From the NCBI GenBank assembly GCA_030690945.1, contig JAUYFM010000017.1, positions 1 through 39,384 of the forward strand: a DNA stretch of 39,384 nucleotides, read 5' to 3'. Each line of letters opens with the position of its first letter. Within the stretch, counting starts at the first letter, position 1. The notes beneath the pieces are model-generated. The model saw only the letters and a program-made list of their open reading frames with translations. It had not been told where the DNA came from and did not search any database. This DNA is from Smithellaceae bacterium. GTDB taxonomy: Bacteria > Desulfobacterota > Syntrophia > Syntrophales > Smithellaceae. The position numbers and the translations under genes are program-made. Shown piece by piece: positions 1,528 to 30,124 of the stretch.

Positions 1528-4227
1528 ATGGAAAAAAAGATTACGATTACCATTGACGGGCAGGAAGTTTCGGCTAAGCCGGGACAAACCGTTCTGGAAT
1601 GCGCCAAGAGCATCGGTATTTTCATACCGACCCTCTGCCACTATCAAAACACAACCAATGTGGGCGCCTGCCGCGTTTGTGTTGTGGAAGTGGAAAATGC
1701 ACGCAGTTTGGTTGCTTCCTGCTGCATGCCGATCAGTCCCGGCATGGTCGTCCGAACCAATACACCGGCAGTTCGCGCCGCCCAGAAGATGATTGTCGAA
1801 TTATTATGGTCATCCGGCGATCATAATTGTCTGACCTGTGAGCAAAACGGCCAGTGCGAATTGCAGAATCTGGTTTACTGGCTGAAAATTGATAAACCGC
1901 GTTTCAATATCGAACCTCCGGGTTATGCGCCGGATAACAGCAACACGATGATCCATCGCGATCTGAACAAGTGCGTCCTTTGCGGCCGCTGCATTCGCGC
2001 CTGCAATGAAATCCAGGTTAACGAGGTTTTGGATTTCGCCATGCGCGGCTCCTACGCCAAAGTCGGCCCCGCTTTCGATGCAGATTATATTGACTCAGCC
2101 TGTGTATTCTGCGGTGAATGCCTCCAGGTGTGTCCAACGGGCGCGATCACATTCAAACAGGCCAAGTTCGGCGGCCGCCCCTGGGAATTGGACAAAGTCC
2201 GCACGACTTGCACCTATTGCGGCGTTGGCTGCCAGATGGATCTTTTTATCAAAGACAATAAAATCGTCAAAGTCATGGGCAACCGCGAATACGGTCAACC
2301 CAATGACGGCAGTCTTTGTGTGAAAGGCCGCTTCGGCATGGATTTCTTATCCCATCCCGACCGCCTGAAAAAACCGTTGATCCGTTATAAGAAAAACGAA
2401 GACTTAAAAGAAGTCACCTGGGATGAAGCTTATACGTTCATCGCCGATAAACTCTCCGCCATCAAACACGCAAACGGTCCGGATAGCATTGCCGGTCTCG
2501 CTTCTGCGCGTTGCTCCAATGAAGAAAATTATCTCTTTCAGAAATTTATGCGCGCGGTCATCGGCACCAACAATGTCGATCACTGCGCCCGTCTCTGACA
2601 CTCCGTAACGGTGACCGGTCTGGCCGCCACATTCGGCAGTGGAGCAATGACCAATTCGATTGATGAACTGGAATTCACGGATTTGATTCTGGCAACGGGA
2701 ACCAACACGACGGAAAATCATCCGGTCATCGGCATGAAAATCAAGCGGGCGGTCAAACAGCACGGAACCAAGCTGATCGTCATCGACCCGCGGGAAATTG
2801 ATTTAGTCAAATACGCCAGCATCTGGCTGAGACAAAAACCGGGAACGGACGTAGCGGTTTTCAACGGCCTGCTGAATGTGATCATCGCAGAAGGCCTTTA
2901 TGCCAAAGAATATGTAGTTGAACGAACCGAAGGATTCGATGCCCTCAAAGCGGTTGTGGCCAAATATACGCCGGAATATGTCGAAAACATTTCCGGCGTG
3001 CCGGCGGAAGATTTGAAGAAGGCCGCCCGGATGTATGCCAAAGCCAACCGCGCAAGCATCATTTACGCCATGGGGATCACCCAACACATCAGTGGTACGG
3101 ATAATGTGAAGAGCACTGCCAATCTGGCGATGCTCTGCGGCAACGTCGGCATTGAAGGCGGCGGTGTCAATCCCCTGCGCGGCCAGAATAACGTTCAAGG
3201 GGCCTGCGATATGGGCGCTCTGCCCAATGTTTATCCGGCCTACCAACAGGTCGCCAATGCAGATGCCCACAAGAAATTTGAAGCAACCTGGGGCGCGACA
3301 CTTTCCCTCAAACCCGGATTGACCTTGATGGAAATCATGGCCGGCGCCGGCAGCGGCGCGATCAAGGCGGTTTATGTCATGGGTGAAAATCCGCTGCTTT
3401 CCGATCCCGATCTGCATCATGTAAAAAAAGAGCTTCAGAATCTGGATTTACTGATTGTTCAAGACATCTTCCTGACCGAAACGGCGCAAATCGCCGATGT
3501 CATACTGCCGGTAGCGAGCTTTGCTGAAAAAGACGGCACCTTTACCAACACCGAACGACGCGTTCAGCGCGTGCGCAAAGCGATTGAACCGCCTGGGGAG
3601 GCTAAAACAGACTGGGAGGTCATCGCCGGCCTATCCAATAAAATGGGTTATCCAATGCACTATACTTCGGCGAAAGAAATTTTTGAAGAAGTCACCACTG
3701 TCACCCCCAGTTACGCAGGCATCACGTATAAGCGCATTGAAAAAGAAGGTTTGCAATGGCCCTGCCCCACGCATGACCACAAGGGCACAAAGTTTCTCCA
3801 TAAAGACCGATTCTCCAGGGGTCTGGGCCTGTTTACGGCCATTGAATTCATACCACCCAATGAACTGCCGGATAAGGATTATCCCTTCTTCCTTTCCACG
3901 GGACGCGTTCTGTATCATTATCACACAGGCACGATGACGACACGCACGCAGGGCCTCTCCGAGCGCTGTCCCGAAAGTCTGGTTGAAATCAATCCGATCG
4001 ATGCCCAAAATTCCGGCATTGCCGATGGTCAAATGGTCAAGGTCACGTCCAGACGCGGTACAGTGGAAGCCAAAGCCCACATTACACAAAAGAGCGCACC
4101 GGGCACCATTTTTATGAACTTTCATTTTGCGGCTGCACCGGTCAACCTTCTGACCAATCCGGTTTTGGACCCGACAGGCAAGATACCGGAATATAAAGTC
4201 TGCGCGGTAAAATTAGCGGCGGCATAA
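1528..4227 (+). CDS. fdhA: Formate dehydrogenase catalytic subunit, selenocysteine-containing
   Basis: The gene reads through an in-frame TGA at 2596-2598 (residue 357), giving 899 residues. It should catalyse formate/CO2 interconversion at a molybdenum or tungsten bis-pyranopterin centre. Domains in order: a [2Fe-2S] domain (Cys37, 48, 51, 65); an NuoG-like His/Cys cluster segment (GDHNCLTCEQNGQCELQ); two [4Fe-4S] motifs starting at Cys149 and Cys192; the catalytic-domain cluster CTYCGVGC from Cys228; the active site HCARL-Sec-HS; and a C-terminal molybdopterin-dinucleotide-binding domain. Length and architecture match NAD-/ferredoxin-linked clostridial and deltaproteobacterial FdhA. No FdhB/NuoF-like partner is adjacent, so the electron acceptor is unknown. 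A conventional gene caller would split it at 2598. The start ATG follows GGAGAAGATAA. Confidence 0.93.
2599..2637 (+). promoter_or_regulatory. bSECIS selenocysteine insertion element
   Basis: Immediately after the TGA, GGTGACC (2610-2616) pairs with GGCCGCC (2622-2628), with one mismatch and one G-U pair, around the loop GGTCT (2617-2621). The loop starts 18 bases after the UGA codon. As recalled, E. coli fdhF has the same loop sequence at the same distance. This would bind SelB and recode UGA as selenocysteine. Confidence 0.85.
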
Positions 4228-4499: not shown

Positions 4500-5741
4500 A
4501 TGGCTAATGAAAATTTGGAGAGTAAGCGATGGGCGCTTGCTGCAGCCGGTATCGTCATCATGTTGATTCTGGGCACCGTTTACGCCTGGTCAGTTTTGTC
4601 AGACCCATTGCGGCCCTGCATGGCTGGGAAGTAAAGGTAGTATCGCGTGTCTTTATGTTAATCATCGGTGTCATCGGTATTTCCGCGGCATTCGGCGGTA
4701 TGCTGGTGGATAAGAAGGGTCCCAAGTTTGTTGCGACGCTCGGCGCATGCTTGTACGGCATCGGCGTTTTGCTGGGCGGTGTGGCTCTGTATTCAGGAAA
4801 CTTCTGGTTTCTTCTCTTTGGGTACGGCGTGATTGCCGGTATAGGCAACGGTTTGACTTATGTTGTGCCTATCGCTACGCTGATCCGCTGGTTCCCGGAC
4901 AAGCGCGGTCTGATCACGGGTCTGGCTGTCATGGGATTCGGTTTCGGCGCGTTCTTTATCGGTATGATTTATCCCCGGCCTCATCGTTAAAGCCGGTGTT
5001 GCCAATGCGTTTCTTATCCTGGGTGCTGTTTATCTGGTTCTTTGTGTTCTTGCGGCTCTGACTCTGAGAAACCCGCCTGCAGGCTGGCTCCCCAAGGGTT
5101 TTAAGCCTTCGGCGACAACGGTCAGTGCGGCGGATTCCTTCGGTTGGGCCGAAGCAAAGAAAACCCGCCAGTGGTACATGCTCTGGTGCATGCTTTTCTT
5201 AAACGTCACCGCAGGCATGGGGCTTTTGTCCAAACTCTCACCCATGGCACAGGAAGTCATCAAAATCGCGCAGGGCATCGATGACCCCGCAAAACTGGCT
5301 GTTCTAGGCGGCGGTGTTCTGGCGACTGCCTCCATCTTCAACGGTCTGGGCCGCCTTTTCTGGGCCGCCGTATCCGACAAAATCGGCAGGAAAGGCACTT
5401 ATATGACCATGTTCCTGACCCAGGCAATTCTTTATATTCTTCTTCCTCAGGTCACCAGCGTGCTCATCTTCACAATCATCGCCTCCTATCTTCTCGCGTG
5501 CCTGGGCGGCGGTTTTGCCGTCATGCCGTCTTTTGCGGCCGACTCCTTTGGTCCGACTAACATCGGCAAAGTTTATGGTTTCCTGCTGACGGCATGGGGC
5601 GCTGCAGGTGTCGTGGGCGGTTTTGTGTTCGCCGAATTCAACAAACAGCAGTCGTTATACGCAGCAGCCGGATGTCTGATTATCGGCTTTGTCATTGCCC
5701 TGTTGTTTAGCCGTCCGAAACACGTGTCTGAGTATAAATAA
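4500..5741 (+). pseudogene. OFA-family MFS transporter (oxalate/formate antiporter-like), two frameshifts
   Basis: The ATG at 4500 follows GGGAGGAATT. Frame 1 encodes an N-terminus ending ILGTVYAWSV, typical of oxalate/formate antiporter-family MFS proteins. The frame is then lost at a T run (4594-4597), where one extra T would give VYAWSVFVRPIAALHGW. It is lost again at a C run (4973-4976), where one fewer C would give IYPGLIVKAGVANAF. The two changes compensate, and the last frame runs to 5741, so the intact protein would be about 413 residues with about 12 membrane segments and a DKKGPK loop. Both lesions are single-base homopolymer changes, which fits sequencing error or a young pseudogene. 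Position after fdhA suggests formate or another small carboxylate as substrate; this is inference only. Confidence 0.8.
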
Positions 5742-17445: not shown

Positions 17446-18423
17446 ATGGTTATCATCGAAACCCATTCACTGACGAAAACGTTCGGCAAAATTCAAGCTG
17501 TGCGCGGTATTGATCTGAATATCGAAAAAGGCGAAATCTTCGGACTGCTGGGCCCTAATGGCGCAGGGAAGACTACGACCATCGGGATGCTCTGCACCAT
17601 CGTTCGCCCCACATCCGGCCAAGGTCTTATCGCGGGTTTTGACATCGCGAAACATCCGACGCAGGTTCGACGCCAGATCGGCATTGTCTTCCAGGACCCG
17701 ACTCTGGACACGATCCTCACCGGCCGCGAAAACCTCCAGTTGCACGCCCGTCTCTATGGAATTCCGTCATCCGTCCGTAATCTCTGGATTGCAGAAATGC
17801 TGGAACTGGTTGACCTCAGAGAACGCGCCGATGATCTGACCAAAACGTATTCCGGCGGAATGAAGCGAAGACTGGAACTGGCGCGCGGCCTTTTGCACCG
17901 TCCCGCCGTTTTGTTTTTGGATGAACCGACACTGGGGCTTGACCCGCAGACCCGCGCCCGCACCTGGGAATACATCCGCAAAATGGCGCAAAAAGAAGAA
18001 ACCACCGTTGTGCTCACCACTCACTACATGGAAGAGGCTGAAGCGATGTGCAACCGCATCGGCATCATTGACGCAGGCCGGATCATCGCGCTCGACACAC
18101 CCGAAAATATGATCAATACGATGGGCGGCGACATCGTTGCGATTGCCACACCTGAGCCGCCGCTGGATAAAATCCGCTCACTTCCTTATGTGTCACAGGT
18201 AAAGAAAGCGGGTGATACGATAGAAATTACGATGAAATCGGCTCATCTACACCTGGCTGAACTGCTGTCTTTGATTCCCGCTGTTATCAGCGTAGAAATG
18301 AGAAAACCGACACTCAGCGACGTCTTTATCAAACTCACAGGTCGCGATATCCAAGTGGATGCCATCGAAAATGGCGAAAGCTGGGTGGACTCCGTTGCCC
18401 GCTATCGTCAGAGAGGAAAATGA
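17446..18423 (+). CDS. ABC-2 type exporter ATP-binding protein (DrrA-like)
   Basis: This 325-residue ATPase has Walker A GPNGAGKTT, Q-loop VFQDPTLD, signature YSGGMKRRLELARGL, Walker B VLFLDEPTLGLDP and H-loop TTHYMEEAE. The C-terminal extension of about 90 residues, common in DrrA/NodI-type exporters, is present. It is followed 4 bases later by its permease. The substrate could be a drug, a lipid or a polysaccharide; nothing in the sequence decides. It is possibly co-transcribed with sppA. Confidence 0.93.
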   Translation: MVIIETHSLTKTFGKIQAVRGIDLNIEKGEIFGLLGPNGAGKTTTIGMLCTIVRPTSGQGLIAGFDIAKHPTQVRRQIGIVFQDPTLDTILTGRENLQLHARLYGIPSSVRNLWIAEMLELVDLRERADDLTKTYSGGMKRRLELARGLLHRPAVLFLDEPTLGLDPQTRARTWEYIRKMAQKEETTVVLTTHYMEEAEAMCNRIGIIDAGRIIALDTPENMINTMGGDIVAIATPEPPLDKIRSLPYVSQVKKAGDTIEITMKSAHLHLAELLSLIPAVISVEMRKPTLSDVFIKLTGRDIQVDAIENGESWVDSVARYRQRGK

Positions 18424-18427
18424 ACCA

Positions 18428-19192
18428 ATGAATTCCGATTTTATTCAGAGAGAACTCCTGGGCATTTCCGCCATTTGGTGGCGGGAGTTTAAAGTCTTTT
18501 GGCGCGAAAAAAGCAGAATCGTTTCCAGTTTCGTTCAACCGATGATGTGGCTGTTTTTGTTCGGCAGCGGCATTGGCGCAAGCATTTCCGTAGGCGACGT
18601 CAACTATCGGGACTACATTTATCCGGGCATCTTGACCATGTCGGTCATTTTCGGTTCCGTTTTTTTTGGACTCTACATCATCTGGGACCGCAAGCTCGAT
18701 GTGCTCAAAGCCGTTCTGGTCGCGCCTGTGACGCGCATCAGCATCTTTTTTGGAAAAGTGATTGGCGGCTGCACCGATGTCCTTTTGCAGGTTTTGATCC
18801 TTTTTGCTTTCTCGTTTCTTTTCCCCTCGGTAAATCCCTGGGGTATCCCGCTGGCCCTATTGATTTTATTCATCACCTCGATTGCTCTGGTTTCGCTGGG
18901 ACTGGCGCTGGGTTCTCTTCTGGAGAGCCTGGAAGGATTTCAGGTCATCTCAACCTTTCTGATTTTTCCTCTTTTTTTCTTGTCTGGCGCACTTTTTCCG
19001 GTGGACGACAAACTTCCCGTCTGGCTGCATGGACTAATGAAACTCAATCCCCTCAGCTACACTGTGGATGGCGTCCGTGGCGCACTCCTCGGCATTCACA
19101 CGTATCCGTTCTATGTTGACATAGGAATCATCACCCTCTTTGCCGCAATCATGCTGGTTCTGGGGAGCTTTCTTTTCAGCCGGATGAAGTGA
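18428..19192 (+). CDS. ABC-2 type exporter permease (DrrB/NodJ-like)
   Basis: This 254-residue membrane protein has about six hydrophobic segments. The N-terminal WWREFKVFWREKSRIVSSFVQPMMWLFLFG and the later LSGALFPVDDKLPVWLHGLMKLNPLSY are characteristic of ABC-2 permeases. It forms the exporter with the ATPase immediately upstream. The start at 18428 is preferred over the in-frame ATG at 18359, which lies inside the ATPase gene. Confidence 0.92.
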   Translation: MNSDFIQRELLGISAIWWREFKVFWREKSRIVSSFVQPMMWLFLFGSGIGASISVGDVNYRDYIYPGILTMSVIFGSVFFGLYIIWDRKLDVLKAVLVAPVTRISIFFGKVIGGCTDVLLQVLILFAFSFLFPSVNPWGIPLALLILFITSIALVSLGLALGSLLESLEGFQVISTFLIFPLFFLSGALFPVDDKLPVWLHGLMKLNPLSYTVDGVRGALLGIHTYPFYVDIGIITLFAAIMLVLGSFLFSRMK

Positions 19193-20869: not shown

Positions 20870-21019
20870 TTTTGACCATCAATAAAGTGGCATAATTTAC
20901 ACTGATAATTTGATAAACCTATGCTAAAGTCCGCAGCCAAAGTCAACAAGATAGTCGGGAAGACCGCATTTAATGTGAATAAATTCGTTGATAAATAAAT
21001 ATAGTATAGCAGGAGCTTT

Positions 21020-24000
21020 ATGTTACAGATTGTTGGAATAGATATTGGATCCGTCGCACTGTCCGTTGTCGTTATTGATGAAAAAGGCACAGTCATTAAT
21101 TCATCCTATCAGTTTCATCGGGGGGCCATCGCCGACACGTTGCGGCAAACGCTGGCCGGCCTTGACATTTCTCAAATCGGCGGCATCGCCATGACCGAGT
21201 CCGGGCCGGATATTCTTGAAGACGTGCCGCGTTATGATACCCAGATCGCCATGATTGCCGCCGTTAAAAAATATCATGCCGAAGTTGGCAGCATTTTATT
21301 TGTCGGCGGTGAAAACTTCGGCCTGATTACGTTTAACGAAAAGGGCGATTATGAACGATTCCGTTCCAATTCATCCTGCGCCGCGGGAACCGGCAGCTTT
21401 CTGGACCAGCAGGCCAAGCGTCTCAATCTAAAGAGCATTGAAGCGCTCAGCACCGTCGCGTTTTGCAACCAAAGCAACACACCGAAGATCGCCACGCGCT
21501 GCGCCGTGTTTGCCAAAACCGACCTGATTCACGCCCAGCAGGAAGGCTATTCCGTGGGCCAGATCAGCGATGGGCTTTGTGAAGGCCTGGCTAAAAACGT
21601 CATCGACACCCTTATTCCCGATTGGAATATCCGCACACCGCTTATTCTGGCGGGTGGTGTCTCGATGAATTCCGCCGTGGTCAAGCATTTCCGCAATCTT
21701 TTGCAGGCCGAGCCCATCATCGGCGAACACAGTCGTCTCTATGGCGCAATCGGCGCGACCCTGCTCTACCTGGAAGAAACGGCTCCCGCTCCACTTAGCG
21801 TCAAAAATTGGGATGATCTTTTCATCAAAGAGATCAAAGAAAAGACATACGGCTATCCCCCGCTGAAACTTTCTCTTTCGACCTATCCGGCATTTGTTAC
21901 CAACGCCAGTTATCTGTATAAACCCGGCAACAACGCCGCCCCCATTGAGGTGGATATTTACCAGCCCCTGCAAAATAAAGAGGAAGTCTATCTGGGCATC
22001 GACATCGGATCGACTAGCACCAAGGCGGTTTTGATCAACAGTCGCAATGACGTGCTGATCGGCCTTTACACGCAAACCGCAGGCCAGCCCGTCAAAGCGA
22101 TCCAGGCGCTTTTCGAGGCCATTGAAAACATCACCCAAAAACAGGCCTGTGAATTTATTTTTAACGGAGTCGGGACCACCGGATCAGGCCGCAAATTCAT
22201 CGGCCGCATCATCAACGCCGATTTGATTATCGACGAAATCACCGCGCATGCGCGCGCCGCCTATGAACTCAACAGCGAAGCGGATACAATCATCGAGATC
22301 GGCGGCCAAGACGCCAAATTCACCACCATGCAAAACGGTATGGTCACCTCCTCGGTTATGAACAATGTCTGCGCCGCAGGCACCGGCAGCTTCATTGAAG
22401 AACAGGCTGTCAAGCTCGGTGTGAGCCTTGCCGACTATACCGGACGCGCCCTGAATACCCCCTCGCCTATTTCCAGCGACCGTTGCACCGTTTTCATGGA
22501 ACGCGACATCAATAACTATCTGACGGAAGGATATTCCGTTGATGAAGTGCTGGCGAGCGTCCTGCATTCCGTATGCGAAAATTATCTGGCCAAAGTCGCC
22601 GTGGAAGGCAACATCGGGCAAAATGTTTGCTTTCAAGGCGCCACCGCCCGCAACCAGGCGCTGGTTGCGGCCTTTGAGCACCGCCTGAACAAACCCATCT
22701 TTGTATCCAAATTCTGTCACCTGACCGGCGCGCTGGGCAGCGCACTCATTCTGGTGGAAAACGCCCTTCGGAATTCCGCTTTCCGGGGGCTCGCGCTTTG
22801 TCGCGAAAATATTCCCGTGGAAAATGAAGTCTGCGAGCTGTGTCACAACAACTGTAAGATTAACAAAGTCACCGTCCAGAGAGAAATCGTGGCCTTTGGA
22901 TTTCTGTGTGGACGCGACTACGATACCAAACATTATGTCGGCACAACCATAAAGCACTATGATCTGATCAAGGAACGAATCAAGGTGTTTCCGCTGGCTA
23001 AAAAACCCGCCAAGTTCAAGAAATCCGTTCGGATCGGCATTCCCAATGCCCTTTACCTGGCTGAAGAAATGCCCCTGTGGAAACATTTTTTCGCCACACT
23101 CGGTGTGGAAACCGTCACGTCTGAAAATCTCAAGAACGCCATTAAAACAGGCAAGAAACTGGCCGGCGCGGAATTCTGCGCGCCCATGAATGCCTTCTTC
23201 GGCCATGTGCAGCATCTGGTTGACAAGTGCGACTACATTTTTTTGCCTGTATATCTGGAAGCCGAAAAACAGAAAGATGAGATTTACCGCTACTACTGCT
23301 ATTATACTCAATTTGCGTCTACACTCTCGGCGGGCACGAAAAGCCTGCGCCTGAAAAACAAAACACTCATGCCGGTCATCGACCATCGCTCATTTCAATC
23401 GCGCATTGAACTCTTTTCCACCCTTAAATCGATTTTGAATACCGGCTACTGGGAAATTTATAACGCCTATGAAGCGGCGCTTTCCTTTTATGACGACGGC
23501 CGCAATAACCTGCTCAATGTCTATGAGAGAGAAAAACCCGGCACAGACAAGATCAGTGTGACGCTTTTGGGCCGGCCCTACTCCATCATGCAAAACTCAA
23601 TGAATAAAGGCATACCGGATATCTTCAGCGCGCTCCATACCAAGACTTTTTATCAGGACATGCTGCCTGTGGCTGAGGAGGATTTGTCAGAGATAGATCC
23701 TCTGCTCAAAAGAATGCACTGGAATTACGCCGCGAAGATTTTGAAAGCGGCGCTCTATATCGCCCGCACACCCGGTCTTTATCCGGTTTATGTCACCTCC
23801 TTCAAGTGTAGTCCCGATTCTTTCTGTCTGGAATATTTTAAACGCATCATGGACAAATACAGCAAACCTTATTTGATCCTCGAACTCGACGAACACGATT
23901 CCAATGTCGGTTATGAAACACGCATCGAAGCAGCCGTACGCTCTTTTAACAACCATCACGAGAACAAAGAACTTCGCCTGATTTCGTCGCGTGCGTTACC

Positions 24001-25237
24001 GCTCAATTCCGAAGGCATCTCCAAGATCAAAGACAAAACACTGCTCATCCCCTGTTTTGATCCCATCAACGCCAAACTGCTGGAAGCGGTATTTATCAAA
24101 GAAGGCATCGACGCGCGCCTGGTGCCACTGACGGAAAAAACTATTCAGCGCGGTCTGCGCACCAATACCGGACAATGTCTGCCGGTCAACCTGATGGCGC
24201 AAAGCTACATGGACTACATTGAAGATAACCTTCTGGACCCGGCTCAGACTGCCGGATGGTGCTTTGACAGCCACGTGGCCTGTAATATCCGGTTGTATCC
24301 GCAATTGATCAAAGGCATCATGGAAGTAAGCGGCAAGGGTATGGAGAAAGTGGACGTGTATATCGGCAACCTGTCGCTTAGCGACATTTCCATGCAGGCC
24401 TCCATTGAGGCCTACTTCGCTCACATGTTCGGCGGGATGCTGCGCAAAGTCGGTTGCAAGATTCGTCCCTATGAAAAAGAAAAAGGCATGACGGACAAGC
24501 TGATCACCGAATCTGTGAACATTCTTTACAACACGCTTCTGGGCGGCAGGAACAAAGATGACGATCTGACCCGCGTGATCAATCTTTTCAAGAAAATCGA
24601 GACCGTCCCCGGCCACCGCCCGAAAGTCGCCATTTTCGGCGACATGTATGCCCGCGACAATGATGTGTTTAATCAGGATTTGATTCACTGCATCGAGGAA
24701 TACGGCGGCGAAGTCATCACCACCCCATTTAATGAATTCGCTAAACTGATTGCCAATCCCTATATGCGGCGCTGGTTTCTGGAAGGAGAGTTCATGGACG
24801 TTCTCTTCACCAAAACGCTCATCGCTCTGGTCAACCAGTTGGAGAAAAGCTACTATAGAATATTTAATGAATTACTGAATGAACCCTCATTTGGCGCCGC
24901 CATTGATTACAAAATAATCTACGACAAGTTTGATGTGACCGTGCAGCATTTTGGCGAGTCCACGGACAACCTGCTGAAAATTTCCGCGCTGATGCAGCAT
25001 TATCCCGACATATCGCTTTTTGTACAGACCAACCCCGCTTTCTGCTGCGCAGGCCTGGTCACCGAAGCAATGACCTCGCGCATCGAGGAATACACAGGCG
25101 TTCCTATTGTCACCCTCAATTATGACGGCACCGGGAAGAATATTAATTCCAAGATCAGCCCGTATATAAAATTCCCGCGCCGGAATAATGAAAAGAAAAT
25201 GCAACAGATGCAGACAATCACTAATGTTATATTTTAA
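21020..25237 (+). CDS. Giant 2-hydroxyacyl-CoA dehydratase activase / HgdB-like fusion
   Basis: This 1405-residue protein appears to join three parts. Two BadF/BcrAD/HgdC-type ASKHA ATPase domains come first. The first begins GIDIGSVALS near residue 5, with Cys120 (CAAGTGSF) and Cys161 (RCAVFAKTD); the second begins GIDIGSTSTKA near 327, with Cys451 and Cys489 in equivalent positions. A linker with CELCHNNC (Cys605, 608, 612) leads to a DUF2229-like region from about 670 and an HgdB-like region with GAEFCAPMNAFFGH, NTGQCLPVNL and NPAFCCAGLVTEAM. Activases bind a [4Fe-4S] cluster between monomers and use ATP to fire low-potential electrons; HgdB/double-cubane proteins accept them. One chain may contain both donor and acceptor. 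The ATG at 21020 follows GCAGGAGC. No separate dehydratase genes adjoin it. Confidence 0.88.
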   Translation: MLQIVGIDIGSVALSVVVIDEKGTVINSSYQFHRGAIADTLRQTLAGLDISQIGGIAMTESGPDILEDVPRYDTQIAMIAAVKKYHAEVGSILFVGGENFGLITFNEKGDYERFRSNSSCAAGTGSFLDQQAKRLNLKSIEALSTVAFCNQSNTPKIATRCAVFAKTDLIHAQQEGYSVGQISDGLCEGLAKNVIDTLIPDWNIRTPLILAGGVSMNSAVVKHFRNLLQAEPIIGEHSRLYGAIGATLLYLEETAPAPLSVKNWDDLFIKEIKEKTYGYPPLKLSLSTYPAFVTNASYLYKPGNNAAPIEVDIYQPLQNKEEVYLGIDIGSTSTKAVLINSRNDVLIGLYTQTAGQPVKAIQALFEAIENITQKQACEFIFNGVGTTGSGRKFIGRIINADLIIDEITAHARAAYELNSEADTIIEIGGQDAKFTTMQNGMVTSSVMNNVCAAGTGSFIEEQAVKLGVSLADYTGRALNTPSPISSDRCTVFMERDINNYLTEGYSVDEVLASVLHSVCENYLAKVAVEGNIGQNVCFQGATARNQALVAAFEHRLNKPIFVSKFCHLTGALGSALILVENALRNSAFRGLALCRENIPVENEVCELCHNNCKINKVTVQREIVAFGFLCGRDYDTKHYVGTTIKHYDLIKERIKVFPLAKKPAKFKKSVRIGIPNALYLAEEMPLWKHFFATLGVETVTSENLKNAIKTGKKLAGAEFCAPMNAFFGHVQHLVDKCDYIFLPVYLEAEKQKDEIYRYYCYYTQFASTLSAGTKSLRLKNKTLMPVIDHRSFQSRIELFSTLKSILNTGYWEIYNAYEAALSFYDDGRNNLLNVYEREKPGTDKISVTLLGRPYSIMQNSMNKGIPDIFSALHTKTFYQDMLPVAEEDLSEIDPLLKRMHWNYAAKILKAALYIARTPGLYPVYVTSFKCSPDSFCLEYFKRIMDKYSKPYLILELDEHDSNVGYETRIEAAVRSFNNHHENKELRLISSRALPLNSEGISKIKDKTLLIPCFDPINAKLLEAVFIKEGIDARLVPLTEKTIQRGLRTNTGQCLPVNLMAQSYMDYIEDNLLDPAQTAGWCFDSHVACNIRLYPQLIKGIMEVSGKGMEKVDVYIGNLSLSDISMQASIEAYFAHMFGGMLRKVGCKIRPYEKEKGMTDKLITESVNILYNTLLGGRNKDDDLTRVINLFKKIETVPGHRPKVAIFGDMYARDNDVFNQDLIHCIEEYGGEVITTPFNEFAKLIANPYMRRWFLEGEFMDVLFTKTLIALVNQLEKSYYRIFNELLNEPSFGAAIDYKIIYDKFDVTVQHFGESTDNLLKISALMQHYPDISLFVQTNPAFCCAGLVTEAMTSRIEEYTGVPIVTLNYDGTGKNINSKISPYIKFPRRNNEKKMQQMQTITNVIF

Positions 25238-25323: not shown

Positions 25324-26061
25324 ATGAGTGAGTTCAGTGGCAAAGTTGCCATCGTTACCGGATCGTCAAGCGGCATCGGCGAAGCAATCGTTCGACGACT
25401 GGCAAGCCTTGGCGCATCTGTGGTGGTGAACTCGGCAACATCTGTTGAGGCCGGCAAGCGCATTACAGCAGACCTTGGCTCGAATGCGGTGTACGTGCAG
25501 GCCGACATCAGCAACAAGGTGTCGGGTGAGAACTTGATCGCCCAGACCATAGAGCGTTTCGGCAAGCTTGACATCCTCATTAACAACGCAGGCTGGACAA
25601 CGCCCGTTCCACATCAAAATTTGGAGGCACTCACCGACAACATCTTCACTCGCACGTTTGAAGTAAATGTGACAGGCACATGGCTGCTGACCAAGGCTGC
25701 AATGCCCTATCTTAAACTCAGTGACGATGGCAACGTGGTGAACATTACCTCTATTGCCGGCGTTCGCCCGGTGGGAAGTTCGATTGCATACGCTATGACA
25801 AAAGCAGCGCTCAATCACATGACTCTGCTGCTTGCCAAGTCGTGCGGCCCCGTGCGCGTGAACGCTGTTGCACCCGGCCTGGTGGAAACGCCATGGACCA
25901 AGGACTGGCAGGCACAGCACGATGGCGTTAAAGCAATGGCGCCCCTCAAGCGCTCAGCAACACCCGATGATTGTGTTGAGGCAACCCTCGGGCTCCTGCG
26001 CACCCGCTACGCCACAGGTCATATCTTCGTGGTCGACGGCGGCCTGACACTCTCTATGTAG
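25324..26061 (+). CDS. Short-chain dehydrogenase/reductase
   Basis: This 245-residue classical SDR has a cofactor loop TGSSSGIG near residue 12, NNAGW near 90, the catalytic Ser in the VVNITSIAG segment, and YAMTK (Tyr-x-x-x-Lys) near residue 157. It most resembles 3-oxoacyl-ACP/CoA reductase or glucose-dehydrogenase-type SDRs; the substrate cannot be set. The C-terminal TGHIFVVDGGLTLSM is normal. RBS AAGGAGGAATCT precedes the ATG. It is in line with the activase gene 86 bases earlier, but codon usage looks less AT-biased. Confidence 0.9.
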   Translation: MSEFSGKVAIVTGSSSGIGEAIVRRLASLGASVVVNSATSVEAGKRITADLGSNAVYVQADISNKVSGENLIAQTIERFGKLDILINNAGWTTPVPHQNLEALTDNIFTRTFEVNVTGTWLLTKAAMPYLKLSDDGNVVNITSIAGVRPVGSSIAYAMTKAALNHMTLLLAKSCGPVRVNAVAPGLVETPWTKDWQAQHDGVKAMAPLKRSATPDDCVEATLGLLRTRYATGHIFVVDGGLTLSM

Positions 26062-26275: not shown

Positions 26276-28213
26276 TCATAACGCCCAGGCCGCTCGCGCC
26301 CCTTCTTCCGTGGCTTCCAGGATCCGCCTGCATTTGCGGGCATCGCCGACGATAGTAAAGGGGATCTTGAGGTTCGAAAGAACGCCTTTCAGCTTATCCG
26401 TCGGTTTCATGCCGGCGGCGACAATGACCTGATCCACGGAGGTAATGGTTTTCTTTTCTCCCGCCAGATCGACGTCCACGCTGCCGTCGCCGATAGCCTT
26501 GACTTCCGCGCCGAAGAGCATGTCACAGTTCTTTTCGCGCAGACGCTTGTGCAGCATATAGCCGTGGGAGGTGATTTTTAGGACGGGAGAACGCTTCAGC
26601 ATTTCCACGACGGTCACTTTAACGCCTTTCTCGCTCAGAAAGTCGGCTGTTTCCATGCCGATAAGCGCGCCACCGATGATGACGACATTTTCTTTGGGAG
26701 CGACCCGGCCATCAAGGATTTGCCAGGCATCACAGACAAACGGTTGATCAATGCCCGCAACCGGGGGTACAACTTTCTGCCCGCCGGTGGCCAGAATTAC
26801 GTAATCGGGCTTCCCTTCGCGCAGCAGAGATTCGGTTACTTCTGTGTTATTTTTTATTTCTACTTTGGACTTCCTGACCTGGCCGATCTGCCAGTCGATC
26901 CATTCGCCGTAGATTTCCTTATGCGGCGGAACCTGGGCATAGCGGATTTGGCCTCCCAGAATATTATTCTTCTCGAAAAGGGTTACCTTATGCCCCAGGC
27001 GAGAGGCCTCGGCGGCTGCGGTAAGACCGGCAGGCCCTGCTCCCACAACCCACACGTTTTTTGGCTTTGCCGCCGGCCCTTCGGGATAGATTGATTCCTG
27101 TCCCGTTTCCGGATTGATGGAACAGCGGATGTTTCCTTCTCCAAGCATTTCCCGTTCGATGCATCCCTGATTGCAGGCAATACATAGCCGGATGTCTTCA
27201 GGCCGGCCTGCTTTGGCCTTGATAAGAAAATCGGGGTCCGACAAAAACTGTCTGCCGAAGGCAACAAGATCTGCGTCACCCCGGGCGATTACCTCGTCGG
27301 CGCACGAAGGATCCGTAAAGCGTCCGACGGCGATAACAGGGACATCGACAACATCCTTCACTTTTCGCGCCAGCCAGGCATTGAAGCCGGGAACGTATTC
27401 GGCGGGCGCCTGGGTGATGCCTCCGGGACTTCCGTGTGTGCCGAAGGAGGCGTGGATAATATCGGCTCCGGCTTTCACCATATCCGGCAGAATAGTCTGC
27501 ATATCGTCGGCGCTGTAGCCGCCTTTGATAAATTCTTCCGCTGATATTCTGATCGAGATGGGGTAGTCGGGGCCCACCTGCCGCCGGATTTCTTCGATGA
27601 CTTCCAGAACAAAGCGTGACCGCTCTTTCAAAGTTGCTCCGCCGTATTCGTCCGTCCGTTGATTGGAGAGGGCCGACAAAAACTGTGTTAAAAGATAGCC
27701 ATGGGCGCAATGGATTTCCACGGCGTCGAAGCCGGCCTCACGAGCCCGTCTGGCTGCCGATCCGAAGGCGGCAACAATTTCCTTAATTTCCGCTGTGGTC
27801 ATCTCGCGTGGCGTTCCCCGAAAAACAATGCTCGGTATTGCCGACGGCGCCACTGCCTTTCCTTTACCCAGCATATAAAGACTTTCCCGACCACTGTGAT
27901 GAATCTGCAAGGCAATCTTGCAGCCGGCTTCATGGGCTACCTCGGCCATTTGGCGGAGTCCCGGGATAAAGCGGTCGTCATAAGCGGCAAGCTGGTTGGG
28001 GCTGACTATGCCGTCCGGGTGAACACCGGTGATTTCCGTAATGATCAATCCAGGTTGTCCTTTGGCCCGACGCTTCAGGTAAGCAATGTTCTCGGCGCTG
28101 ACGGTTCCGTCGGCATTCCCCAGATTCGTCCCCATCGGAGGCATGACCACCCGGTTAGGCAATTCCATTGATTTGATTTTAAGCGGTGATAAAATGTGGC
28201 TTAATGTACCCAT
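26276..28213 (-). CDS. NADH:flavin oxidoreductase, 2,4-dienoyl-CoA reductase type (OYE family)
   Basis: This is a 645-residue iron-sulfur flavoprotein. Residues 1-340 form an FMN TIM barrel (MELPNRVVMPPMGTNLG; HCAHGYLLTQFLSALSNQR). The cluster motif CIACNQGC plus a later Cys (NIRCSINP) follows, then an FAD/NAD(P)H module with WVVGAGPAGLTAAAEASRLG and a second Rossmann motif VVIIGGALIGMETADFL. This is the FadH/trimethylamine-dehydrogenase/BaiCD architecture, reducing enoate or dienoyl-CoA double bonds. I use the ATG at 28213 because GGAGG lies 9 bases before it; the ATG at 28219 is only 3 bases away. The substrate is unknown. It diverges from an acyl-CoA ligase, which hints at acyl-CoA chemistry. 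Confidence 0.92.
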   Translation of the reverse strand: MGTLSHILSPLKIKSMELPNRVVMPPMGTNLGNADGTVSAENIAYLKRRAKGQPGLIITEITGVHPDGIVSPNQLAAYDDRFIPGLRQMAEVAHEAGCKIALQIHHSGRESLYMLGKGKAVAPSAIPSIVFRGTPREMTTAEIKEIVAAFGSAARRAREAGFDAVEIHCAHGYLLTQFLSALSNQRTDEYGGATLKERSRFVLEVIEEIRRQVGPDYPISIRISAEEFIKGGYSADDMQTILPDMVKAGADIIHASFGTHGSPGGITQAPAEYVPGFNAWLARKVKDVVDVPVIAVGRFTDPSCADEVIARGDADLVAFGRQFLSDPDFLIKAKAGRPEDIRLCIACNQGCIEREMLGEGNIRCSINPETGQESIYPEGPAAKPKNVWVVGAGPAGLTAAAEASRLGHKVTLFEKNNILGGQIRYAQVPPHKEIYGEWIDWQIGQVRKSKVEIKNNTEVTESLLREGKPDYVILATGGQKVVPPVAGIDQPFVCDAWQILDGRVAPKENVVIIGGALIGMETADFLSEKGVKVTVVEMLKRSPVLKITSHGYMLHKRLREKNCDMLFGAEVKAIGDGSVDVDLAGEKKTITSVDQVIVAAGMKPTDKLKGVLSNLKIPFTIVGDARKCRRILEATEEGARAAWAL

Positions 28214-28375
28214 GTTCATTTTCCTCCAATTTAATATTCCGCAAGTTGTCTATCACATGTTAAACAGGAATTCTGCCATTTTTTAACAGACCAGTGACGA
28301 TCGGGAAATACATGCGTTTCTTCCCCATAAGCACTCTTCGGAAAATAAAGTTCTTATCAAAACCGATAAATGTTT

Positions 28376-28453: not shown

Positions 28454-30124
28454 ATGGAAACAAAACCATGGCATCGTCATTACGATTACAATGTCCCAAC
28501 AACCATCCGTTATCCGCGTCTGGCCATTCACAATCTTGTTGAACTACCGGCCAACACCTACCCGGATAAAACCGCCCTGAACTATTTCGGCACAGAAATC
28601 ACTTTCTGGGAACTGCGTACCCAGATCCTGCGATTTGCCAATGCTCTCGGAGTGTTGGGGATTAAAAAAGGGGATCGGGTCGGAATGCATCTCCCAAACT
28701 GCCCCCAGTACCCGATCGCTTATTATGCGGCCTTGTCCCTAGGCGCCATCATCGTCAACCTCAATCCCCTGTATACGCCTGATGAATTGACAATGATGGC
28801 GAATACCTCAGGACTAACAACATTGGTCACCTTCGACATGGCCCTTCCGGCGATCCGTACGTTATGCAAAAACGTCAGGATACCCCGGGTCATCGTCACC
28901 GCGGTGACGGATTACATCAAGGGATTCCCGGTAAGCTCCGCCAAAAGTCTCGATCTAGAAGAGGGGTGGCTTCATTTTTCGGAACTCCTTGATAAATCGA
29001 CGTCAACCAAGCGATCCAGGGTAGAGGTAAGCCCTAACGATCCGGCCTTGATCCAATTCACGGGCGGTACGACGGGCGTTCCCAAGGGCGCCGTCCTGAC
29101 CCATGGAAACGTTATCGCGGCAGTCCTGGCCAGCGCCTTATGGGGAAATCCGACAATCAGCCTGACCTCGCCGGAGAGGCGCAGTGTCCTGGCGGTTCTG
29201 CCCTATTTCCATGTCTATGGCAATATCGTCGTCATGAACTGGGCCATGTTTTCATGCGCAACTCAGATACAGGTCCCCCGCTTCAACATTGACGAAATGA
29301 TGGGGCTTCTGGCCAATTTTAACGAGATTACTTTCTTCCCGACGGTTCCTACCTTGATCACCGCCCTGATCAACCACCCCAAAGCGGAAGAGTTAAATCT
29401 TGCCAAAAAAATCGGCTTGCTGAATTCCGGTGCAGCACCTATGGCCACGGAACTCATCGAGAAGGTCAAGGACATGGGTATTTATTTCAGCGAGGGCTAC
29501 GGCCTTTCCGAATCCACATCCGTCGGCATCTGCAATCCGATTCTGGGACTCAAGAAGGCGGGAAGCATTGGTGTTCCAATCCCCGATAACGATGTCAAAC
29601 TTATGGATATCGAAGACGGCAAGACAGAGGTTCCCCAGGGACAGCCGGGCGAGATCATCATGAAAGGTCCTGTCATCATGCAGGGATATTGGAACAATCC
29701 GGAAGAAACGGCAGGACAGCTCAAAGACGGCTGGCTCTACACGGGCGACATCGCCATCCGCGACGAAGAAGGCTATATCTTTATCGTGGACAGGAAGAAG
29801 GACATGATCATCGCGGGCGGATTCAACATCTATCCCCGGGATATCGATGAAGTGCTGTTCCAGCATCCCAAAATAGCTGAGGCGGTATCTCTGGGCGTCA
29901 AAGACGAGTACCGCGGCGAGACGGTCAAGGCTTTCGTTGTTCTGAAGCCGGGAGAAACGTGTACACCGGAAGAAATCATCAAATTCTGTAAGGAAAAACT
30001 GGCCCCCTACAAAGTGCCGAAACTGATTGAGTTCAGGGACTCGATTCCCAAGTCTGCTGTTGGCAAGATCCTCCGCAAAACTCTCCGTGAGGAAGAAGAC
30101 GCGAAGGCAAAACAGAAAAAATAG
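28454..30124 (+). CDS. Long-chain-fatty-acid-CoA ligase (AMP-forming)
   Basis: This 556-residue member of the ANL superfamily activates a fatty acid with ATP and CoA through an acyl-adenylate. The P-loop motif FTGGTTGVPKGAVLTHGN lies near residue 205, SEGYGLSES near 343, the adenylate-binding GWLYTGDIA near 430, the hinge DRKKDMIIAGGFNIYPRDIDE, and the catalytic Lys in KSAVGKILRKTLRE near the C-terminus. It looks like FadD; chain length is not predictable. RBS CAGGAGGAAAAA precedes the ATG. It diverges from the OYE-type reductase and ends in a strong terminator. Confidence 0.94.
   Translation: METKPWHRHYDYNVPTTIRYPRLAIHNLVELPANTYPDKTALNYFGTEITFWELRTQILRFANALGVLGIKKGDRVGMHLPNCPQYPIAYYAALSLGAIIVNLNPLYTPDELTMMANTSGLTTLVTFDMALPAIRTLCKNVRIPRVIVTAVTDYIKGFPVSSAKSLDLEEGWLHFSELLDKSTSTKRSRVEVSPNDPALIQFTGGTTGVPKGAVLTHGNVIAAVLASALWGNPTISLTSPERRSVLAVLPYFHVYGNIVVMNWAMFSCATQIQVPRFNIDEMMGLLANFNEITFFPTVPTLITALINHPKAEELNLAKKIGLLNSGAAPMATELIEKVKDMGIYFSEGYGLSESTSVGICNPILGLKKAGSIGVPIPDNDVKLMDIEDGKTEVPQGQPGEIIMKGPVIMQGYWNNPEETAGQLKDGWLYTGDIAIRDEEGYIFIVDRKKDMIIAGGFNIYPRDIDEVLFQHPKIAEAVSLGVKDEYRGETVKAFVVLKPGETCTPEEIIKFCKEKLAPYKVPKLIEFRDSIPKSAVGKILRKTLREEEDAKAKQKK

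Follow-up and report, generated by a model that had tools for sequence, protein, structure and literature searches.

We analyzed a 39,384-nucleotide stretch of DNA from a Smithellaceae bacterium (GenBank assembly GCA_030690945.1, contig JAUYFM010000017.1, positions 1 to 39,384 of the forward strand), which is hereafter called the window and lies on the contig labeled C52. The subject is one long open reading frame (ORF) of the window that encodes an activase-like protein; its parts and neighbors are listed in Table 1. The original prediction, made from the sequence alone, had placed two ASKHA domains in this single chain, and this was borne out by two profile families, each matching in two stretches: Pfam BcrAD_BadFG (PF01869; 216.9 bits, cut-off 31.5) and NCBIfam TIGR00241 (255.9 bits, cut-off 125.4). 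The first domain (ASKHA1) matched BcrAD_BadFG by itself with an E value of 5.8e-26, and its hhalign comparison with the second (ASKHA2) gave 99.6%. In a domain search with the structure model, the best fold matches of ASKHA2 were MbdQ (Z 27.8), HadI (26.7), HgdC (25.8), and DCCP-R (23.4), followed by Kae1 and kinases at Z 18.7 or lower. Behind both BcrAD_BadFG stretches, DUF2229 (PF09989) was detected at residues 671-882 with 136.5 bits (cut-off 29.4). The protein thus has PF01869 twice and PF09989 in the same order on one chain and belongs to the large DUF2229 activase proteins. It did not reach the equivalog cut-offs of the class I benzoyl-CoA reductases (bzdQ, 111.8 against 380.2 bits; bcrA and bcrD also below cut-off).

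Table 1 Features of the activase-like gene and other genes of the window
Feature	Position	Strand	Basis or conservation
Whole ORF, predicted single-chain activase and reductase-like protein, 1405 residues, start ATG	21020..25237	+	
AGGAG, Shine-Dalgarno-like, separated from ATG by 4 bases	21011..21015	+	Sequence inspection
ASKHA activase domain 1, residues 2-258, nucleotide motifs degenerate in the window clade	21023..21793	+	Pfam BcrAD_BadFG, hhalign, motif columns
Cys120, predicted cluster ligand	21377..21379	+	78/78 rows
Cys161, predicted cluster ligand	21500..21502	+	78/78 rows
ASKHA activase domain 2, residues 322-582, motifs intact	21983..22765	+	TIGR00241, PDB matches, fold match
Cys451, predicted cluster ligand	22370..22372	+	78/78 rows
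Cys489, predicted cluster ligand	22484..22486	+	78/78 rows
Four-Cys linker, C605-x2-C608-x3-C612-x17-C630	22817..22939	+	78/78 rows
HGD-like module 1, residues 660-990, contains DUF2229; Cys720, Cys760, Cys930	22997..23989	+	Pfam DUF2229, hhalign
HGD-like module 2, residues 1000-1390; Cys1053, Cys1088, Cys1342	24017..25189	+	hhalign, split-off genes, L107
Formate-dehydrogenase-like molybdopterin oxidoreductase	1528-4227	+	
Major facilitator superfamily (MFS) transporter pieces	4529-4990 and 5178-5741	+	
ABC transporter pair (ATPase and ABC-2 membrane protein)	17446-19192	+	
Short-chain dehydrogenase/reductase (SDR)	25324-26061	+	
BaiCD-like old yellow enzyme	26276-28219	-	Below equivalog cut-off
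Acyl-CoA ligase	28454-30124	+	

Conservation was assessed with 80 selected ORFs; three partial loci from a scan of viral contigs were left out of this set. Two ORFs shorter than 1000 residues, L063 (877 residues) and L133 (972 residues), were excluded from the alignment, which therefore comprised 78 related and unweighted rows: the window protein, 18 near relatives forming a clade with it, and 59 others. Fourteen of the 28 Cys residues of the window protein were kept in all 73 full-length rows, while each of the remaining ones was found in at most 46 of the 73. The invariant residues fall into groups of two and two in the activase domains, four in the linker, and three in each region behind it. 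The positions proposed originally for the activase ligands (Cys120/161 and Cys451/489) were correct, and their presence in every row, including the window, indicated that they are no chance pattern. Cys720, Cys760, and Cys930 were likewise present in 78/78 rows, Cys1053 in 75/78, and Cys1088 and Cys1342 in 73/78, the remainder being gaps in split or cut-off genes.

The four-Cys linker was given no agreed family. In a Pfam scan of the linkers of 20 members, Stomagen matched five (best E, 1.9e-4) and the 4Fe-4S domain Fer4_16 matched two (best E, 3.4e-4); the linker of the window protein had no credible Pfam match, and the PDB profile search also returned none. A molybdopterin-type Fe4S4 domain, guessed from the motif, was not named by Pfam. 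The linker may carry another [4Fe-4S] cluster or zinc.

At the C-terminal side, the original prediction had seen a single HgdB-like acceptor module. An HGD-like part is present there, and it consists of two modules, which together with the invariant linker replace the single module in the proposal. Comparison of the modules with each other by hhalign gave 97.4% (E 1.6e-11) with their three Cys residues aligned. We then compared both with a profile built from 10 of the 11 matches to the HGD-D family (PF06050) in the same genome; the 10 aligned proteins have three invariant Cys, as does each module, and the profile recovered HadBC, DCCP, BzdNO, and MbdNO among solved structures. The match to this profile was 95.9% (E 5.1e-9) for module 1 and 56% (E 1.1e-4) for module 2. 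As controls, 22 unrelated neighbor families gave 3.7% or less and both ASKHA profiles 1.8% or less; a 23rd family proved to be split-off module-2 genes and matched module 2 at 100%. Among 25 module-2 sequences, 13 matched DUF2229 at E values up to 1 (best, 4.2e-7) and two matched HGD-D (best, 0.0055). In the relative L107, which has two DUF2229 stretches, module 2 exceeded the Pfam HGD-D cut-off (38.6 against 28.4 bits). Judged by these comparisons, both modules appear to be distant homologs of HGD-D, firmly in the case of module 1 and less firmly in that of module 2; since the window protein is below the PF06050 cut-off, we call them HGD-like and not members of HGD-D.

The number of ligands bears on the type of cluster. 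In the class I benzoyl-CoA reductase, three Cys of BzdO bind a [4Fe-4S] cluster with a water-bound iron, whereas BzdN binds its double cubane with six Cys (PMC11971306). A double cubane was rejected for the window protein on the basis of its Cys count, as each module has three invariant Cys and one [8Fe-9S] cluster needs six. Therefore, a cluster of the type in BzdO and the 2-hydroxyacyl-CoA dehydratases (HADs) is favored.

Shorter relatives supported this division of the chain. Five of about 1030 residues (L132-L136) were chosen from a larger number among the matches listed; each has the activase pair and the linker and ends with module 1. In four of them (L132, L134, L135, and L136), module 2 was found in the adjoining gene (E 2.1e-80 or better), and a search of the surroundings of L133 found no module 2. 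A ~310-residue gene, classified as radical SAM by Pfam in L123, adjoins 7 of the 25 members of another group of the family (L107, L123, L126, L131, L134, L135, and L136). In addition, one family member (L104:5385-10901) is 1839 residues long, with about 360 extra residues ahead of its first activase domain.

The absence of dehydratase A/B genes nearby, noted originally, was confirmed: none of the 11 HGD-D matches of the genome lies on contig C52, and they are distributed over six other contigs. Across 80 neighborhoods (the window and 19 + 60 loci, several of them short contigs), no separate gene was detectable with the HGD-D profile; at 1e-3 the search detected two control loci and otherwise only 15 of the long ORFs themselves. 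Constant company of conventional dehydratase subunits, the pattern named beforehand as speaking against the idea, was hence not seen among the orthologs (0/80 neighborhoods). We attribute the lack of separate dehydratase genes to the two dehydratase-like halves fused onto the chain. The HGD-D pairs on contigs C8, C20, and C35 adjoin activases of their own. The same genome also has the arrangement HGD-HGD-ASKHA-ASKHA as four genes (C8:116256-121006; L004, L006, L008, and L016); no equivalog cut-off for benzoyl-CoA reductase or double-cubane proteins was reached in this cluster, and one of its activases has GGQF in place of GGQD.

The two activase domains, which had been treated alike in the prediction, were found to be unequal, although both retain their cluster Cys. 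We scored ASKHA motif residues that, following the activase literature, we take to be ATP-binding. In ASKHA2, GxDxGS, Glu406, and GGQDxK were intact in 78/78 rows. In ASKHA1 of the window clade, positions 12, 13, and 15 are Val, Ala or Ser, and Ser in the 18 rows with letters; Gly60 of the TG motif was kept in none of 17 readable rows, against 59/59 outside the clade; Asp99 was kept in 0/19 (Asn in 18, Thr in 1), against 48/59 outside; and residue 101 is Gly in 19/19 and Lys in none, against Lys in 37/59 outside. The clade was delimited with a FastTree tree of ASKHA2 and module 1, in which it forms one side of a branch with support 100; L130 joins it by long branches, and only the unity of the window clade was used. 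Because ASKHA1 has lost most of its nucleotide-motif residues in this clade, a single working ATP site, that of ASKHA2, probably remains. Asymmetric activase pairs are known: MbdP, the delta subunit, reads GGQT where MbdQ, the best fold match of ASKHA2, reads GGQD, and the second C8 activase has the GGQF mentioned above. On the analogy of these pairs, the fused activase pair resembles a heterodimeric activase.

On balance, we favor the reading that the window protein is a self-contained, ATP-driven reductase of very low potential on one chain, of the benzoyl-CoA reductase and HAD kind, and we regard it as probable. ASKHA1 and ASKHA2 would form a pseudo-dimer with one [4Fe-4S] cluster on Cys120, Cys161, Cys451, and Cys489, as suggested by the activase families. 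This cluster would be loaded by reduced ferredoxin or a donor like it, and ATP turnover (in this clade, probably only at ASKHA2) would push electrons one by one, perhaps through the four-Cys linker, to the clusters of both HGD-like modules. By analogy with HadB and BzdO, one module cluster may have an open-site iron that gives the electron to the substrate. The cluster types, electron path, and catalysis are those we infer.

Several results weigh against this reading. The window protein had no Pfam match to HGD-D at 1e-3, its module 2 matched no Pfam family at E values up to 1, and searching PDB sequences with the two module profiles gave no hit up to E 1. Taken alone, the 56% of module 2 with HGD-D is weak, and the HGD-D alignments span only the C-terminal part of the modules, without the region of the first two Cys. 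A shallow profile of three split-off module-2 sequences gave 1.3% with module 1 and 5.3% with HGD-D, and the HGD-D profile missed the four split-off module-2 genes at 1e-3. Structure prediction also gave little support. The AlphaFold2 model of the C-terminal half (residues 592-1405) had a pLDDT of 43.9, and a Foldseek search with it gave nothing significant (threshold, E 0.001); the third-ranking hit, a DCCP chain with an E value of 0.055, was not counted. The model of residues 2-990, predicted like the other from 17 close sequences, had a mean pLDDT of 66.6, a pTM of 0.43, and values below 50 in the cluster loops, and showed no credible domain arrangement. The lack of HGD folds in the domain search is uninformative, because ASKHA2 fills nearly the whole list. 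Finally, outside the window clade, only 8 of 59 rows have GGQD in ASKHA1 and 11 of 59 are without the Asp; Lys15, Gly60, Asp99, and Lys101 are kept together in 22 of 59, and the nearest outside row, L130, has GGGS. As ASKHA1 is imperfect there too, its loss in the window clade is a matter of degree.

Three other explanations were weighed. The clusters may be formed between two chains, ASKHA2 with ASKHA2 (and ASKHA1 with ASKHA1), as in a conventional homodimer with long tails. The known HAD activases are homodimers (PMC11574389), and the model with its pTM of 0.43 does not place the two domains credibly. However, pairs of an intact and an altered activase subunit exist (MbdQ/MbdP and C8), and the fused pair resembles them; moreover, an ASKHA1-ASKHA1 pair would have no working ATP site, given the loss of the motifs across the clade. 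We therefore consider this arrangement unlikely. It is rather unlikely, too, that the protein is an activase only, donating electrons in an ATP-driven manner while its rear part serves as a docking or relay module for a separate protein such as another HGD-D. The weak HGD match of module 2 by itself and the 11 HGD-D matches on six other contigs would suit such a donor, and in the known HAD systems a separate activase reduces the dehydratase (PMC11574389). Nevertheless, the rear part has two modules with three invariant Cys each, like the HGD-D proteins of the genome, none of the 80 neighborhoods had a separate HGD-D gene detected, and the HGD-D pairs of C8, C20, and C35 already have activases alongside.

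We regard a non-catalytic role, for example in redox or nucleotide sensing or as a scaffold for cluster repair, with zinc bound by the linker, as very improbable. No pathway neighbor is kept, and the linker is without an agreed family. Similarly annotated genes, likened by annotation alone, appear among the Rex-motif genes of Lactobacillus oligofermentans (PMC4972977) and in work on manganese transport in Streptococcus mutans (PMC6952196). On the other hand, all ten Cys of the ASKHA domains and HGD-like modules are kept across the full-length rows, as a working electron pump would need, and so are GxDxGS, Glu406, and GGQDxK of ASKHA2.

Within the phylum, 192 of the 247 genomes sampled had a DUF2229 match, and so did 4 of 14 named genomes used as controls, including Thermotoga maritima and Lactococcus lactis; among the matches listed, the ORFs were often ~1380-1580 or 1010-1110 residues long. 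Close orthologs (72% or more), likewise among the matches listed, were present in 17 of 24 searched genomes of the family, including its own, some as pieces at contig ends, and beyond the family short pieces were found in 1 of 16 genomes. Named records yielded 19 related loci, mostly from Syntrophaceae, Smithella, and deltaproteobacterial metagenome-assembled genomes (MAGs), with 52 to 97% identity. The genome also encodes a paralog of ~1436 residues (L117, C2:61007-65203), which shares the part order and all 14 Cys with the window protein. It differs in having only 28% identity and in lying on another branch of the tree; unlike the window ASKHA1, that of L117 keeps Lys15, Gly60, and GGED, with Asn for Asp8 and Val at residue 101. 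In 7 of the 18 loci of its branch (L117, L140, L142, L144, L153, L155, and L156), this other long Syntrophales paralog lies ~200-250 bases behind an ATP synthase A-chain gene, for which Pfam was run on L140 alone.

No flanking family was kept in more than 4 of the 19 related loci, several of which are short contigs with little flank. An ABC transporter pair lies 1.5-2.6 kb upstream in four (L046, L050, L060, and L061), and two of these four recurrences are orthologs of the window pair (79-84% identity). A Na/bile-acid-symporter-like gene was found in four loci at varying distances (L046, L052, L056, and L061), a xanthine/uracil-type permease directly downstream in four (Pfam run on two), an aldehyde dehydrogenase in four, adjacent in three (Pfam run on two), and a Na/H-exchanger-like gene directly upstream in three (detected by Pfam in two). 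The SDR, old-yellow-enzyme-like, and acyl-CoA ligase genes beside the window gene recur in only three loci (L046, L047, and L061). Because the flanking genes are so poorly kept, no pathway was drawn from the bile-acid-like names beside the gene. No pathway gene travels with it, and thus we think it likelier that the protein has a free-standing redox task, its substrate being a CoA thioester or some other small molecule, than that it serves a single catabolic pathway.

Elsewhere in the window, the formate-dehydrogenase-like gene has one in-frame TGA (codon 357), likely encoding selenocysteine; its relative in L055 is split at the same place. The MFS transporter pieces are separate ORFs and look broken, and L055 has an unbroken relative of 416 residues. 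An Rfam scan of the window, judged by gathering scores, detected no RNA element.

Among known systems, the class I benzoyl-CoA reductases (MbdONPQ, BzdNOPQ, and BcrCBAD) are alike in having two activase and two HGD-type parts, and MbdONPQ shares the asymmetry of its activase pair. They consist of four separate subunits, whereas the window protein is one chain with an extra four-Cys linker and no aromatic-pathway operon alongside; BzdN further differs by its six-Cys double cubane from the modules described here. HadI-HadBC and HgdC-HgdAB share the activase motif set of ASKHA2 and have two HGD-type parts without the six-Cys pattern, but there the activase is a small homodimer and the dehydratase consists of two separate subunits, in contrast to the single chain with its degenerate ASKHA1. 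The double-cubane cluster protein and its reductase (DCCP and DCCP-R; 6eno and 7yyl) also combine an ATP-driven activase with an HGD-type acceptor. DCCP itself is made separately as a homodimer, each subunit of which has a double cubane (PMC11971306), and the window protein lacks the six-Cys pattern. A further likeness was found in Ruminococcus MAGs, in which a protein described as "two YjiL ATPase plus DUF2229" adjoins an Hgd-D-like gene (PMC11362221). Its part order is that of L132 and L134-L136, and the second HGD-like part, fused in the window, is separate; the authors of that study also likened their protein to BcrCBAD. The architecture is not rare, as the counts for DUF2229 indicate; it is known by annotation and, in split form, from print in 2024 (PMC11362221), and the window protein represents a variant in which all parts are fused and the first ATP site is probably dead. 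A literature search found no functional study of the fused protein by title, the main papers on DCCP being outside its reach.

A bolder proposal, which we offer only tentatively, is that the protein may be a complete class I reductase-type machine in one polypeptide, which in this Syntrophaceae clade would be an asymmetric pump with one dead and one live ATP site and a single intramolecular cluster, delivering electrons into two catalytic modules. It might then be a minimal single-gene system that works below the usual biological potential limit and is used outside aromatic catabolism. Electron pumps of this ATP-driven type may attain potentials close to -1 V and perform chemistry that few other enzymes do (PMC11971306). 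The characterized pumps named here have several subunits. A widespread single-gene form carrying both the pump and the putative catalytic parts, if true, would be easier to express, mutate, and study structurally, and with one ATP site dead in a whole clade, the ATP used per electron could be tested directly. If correct, our reading would also help to assign a function to DUF2229.

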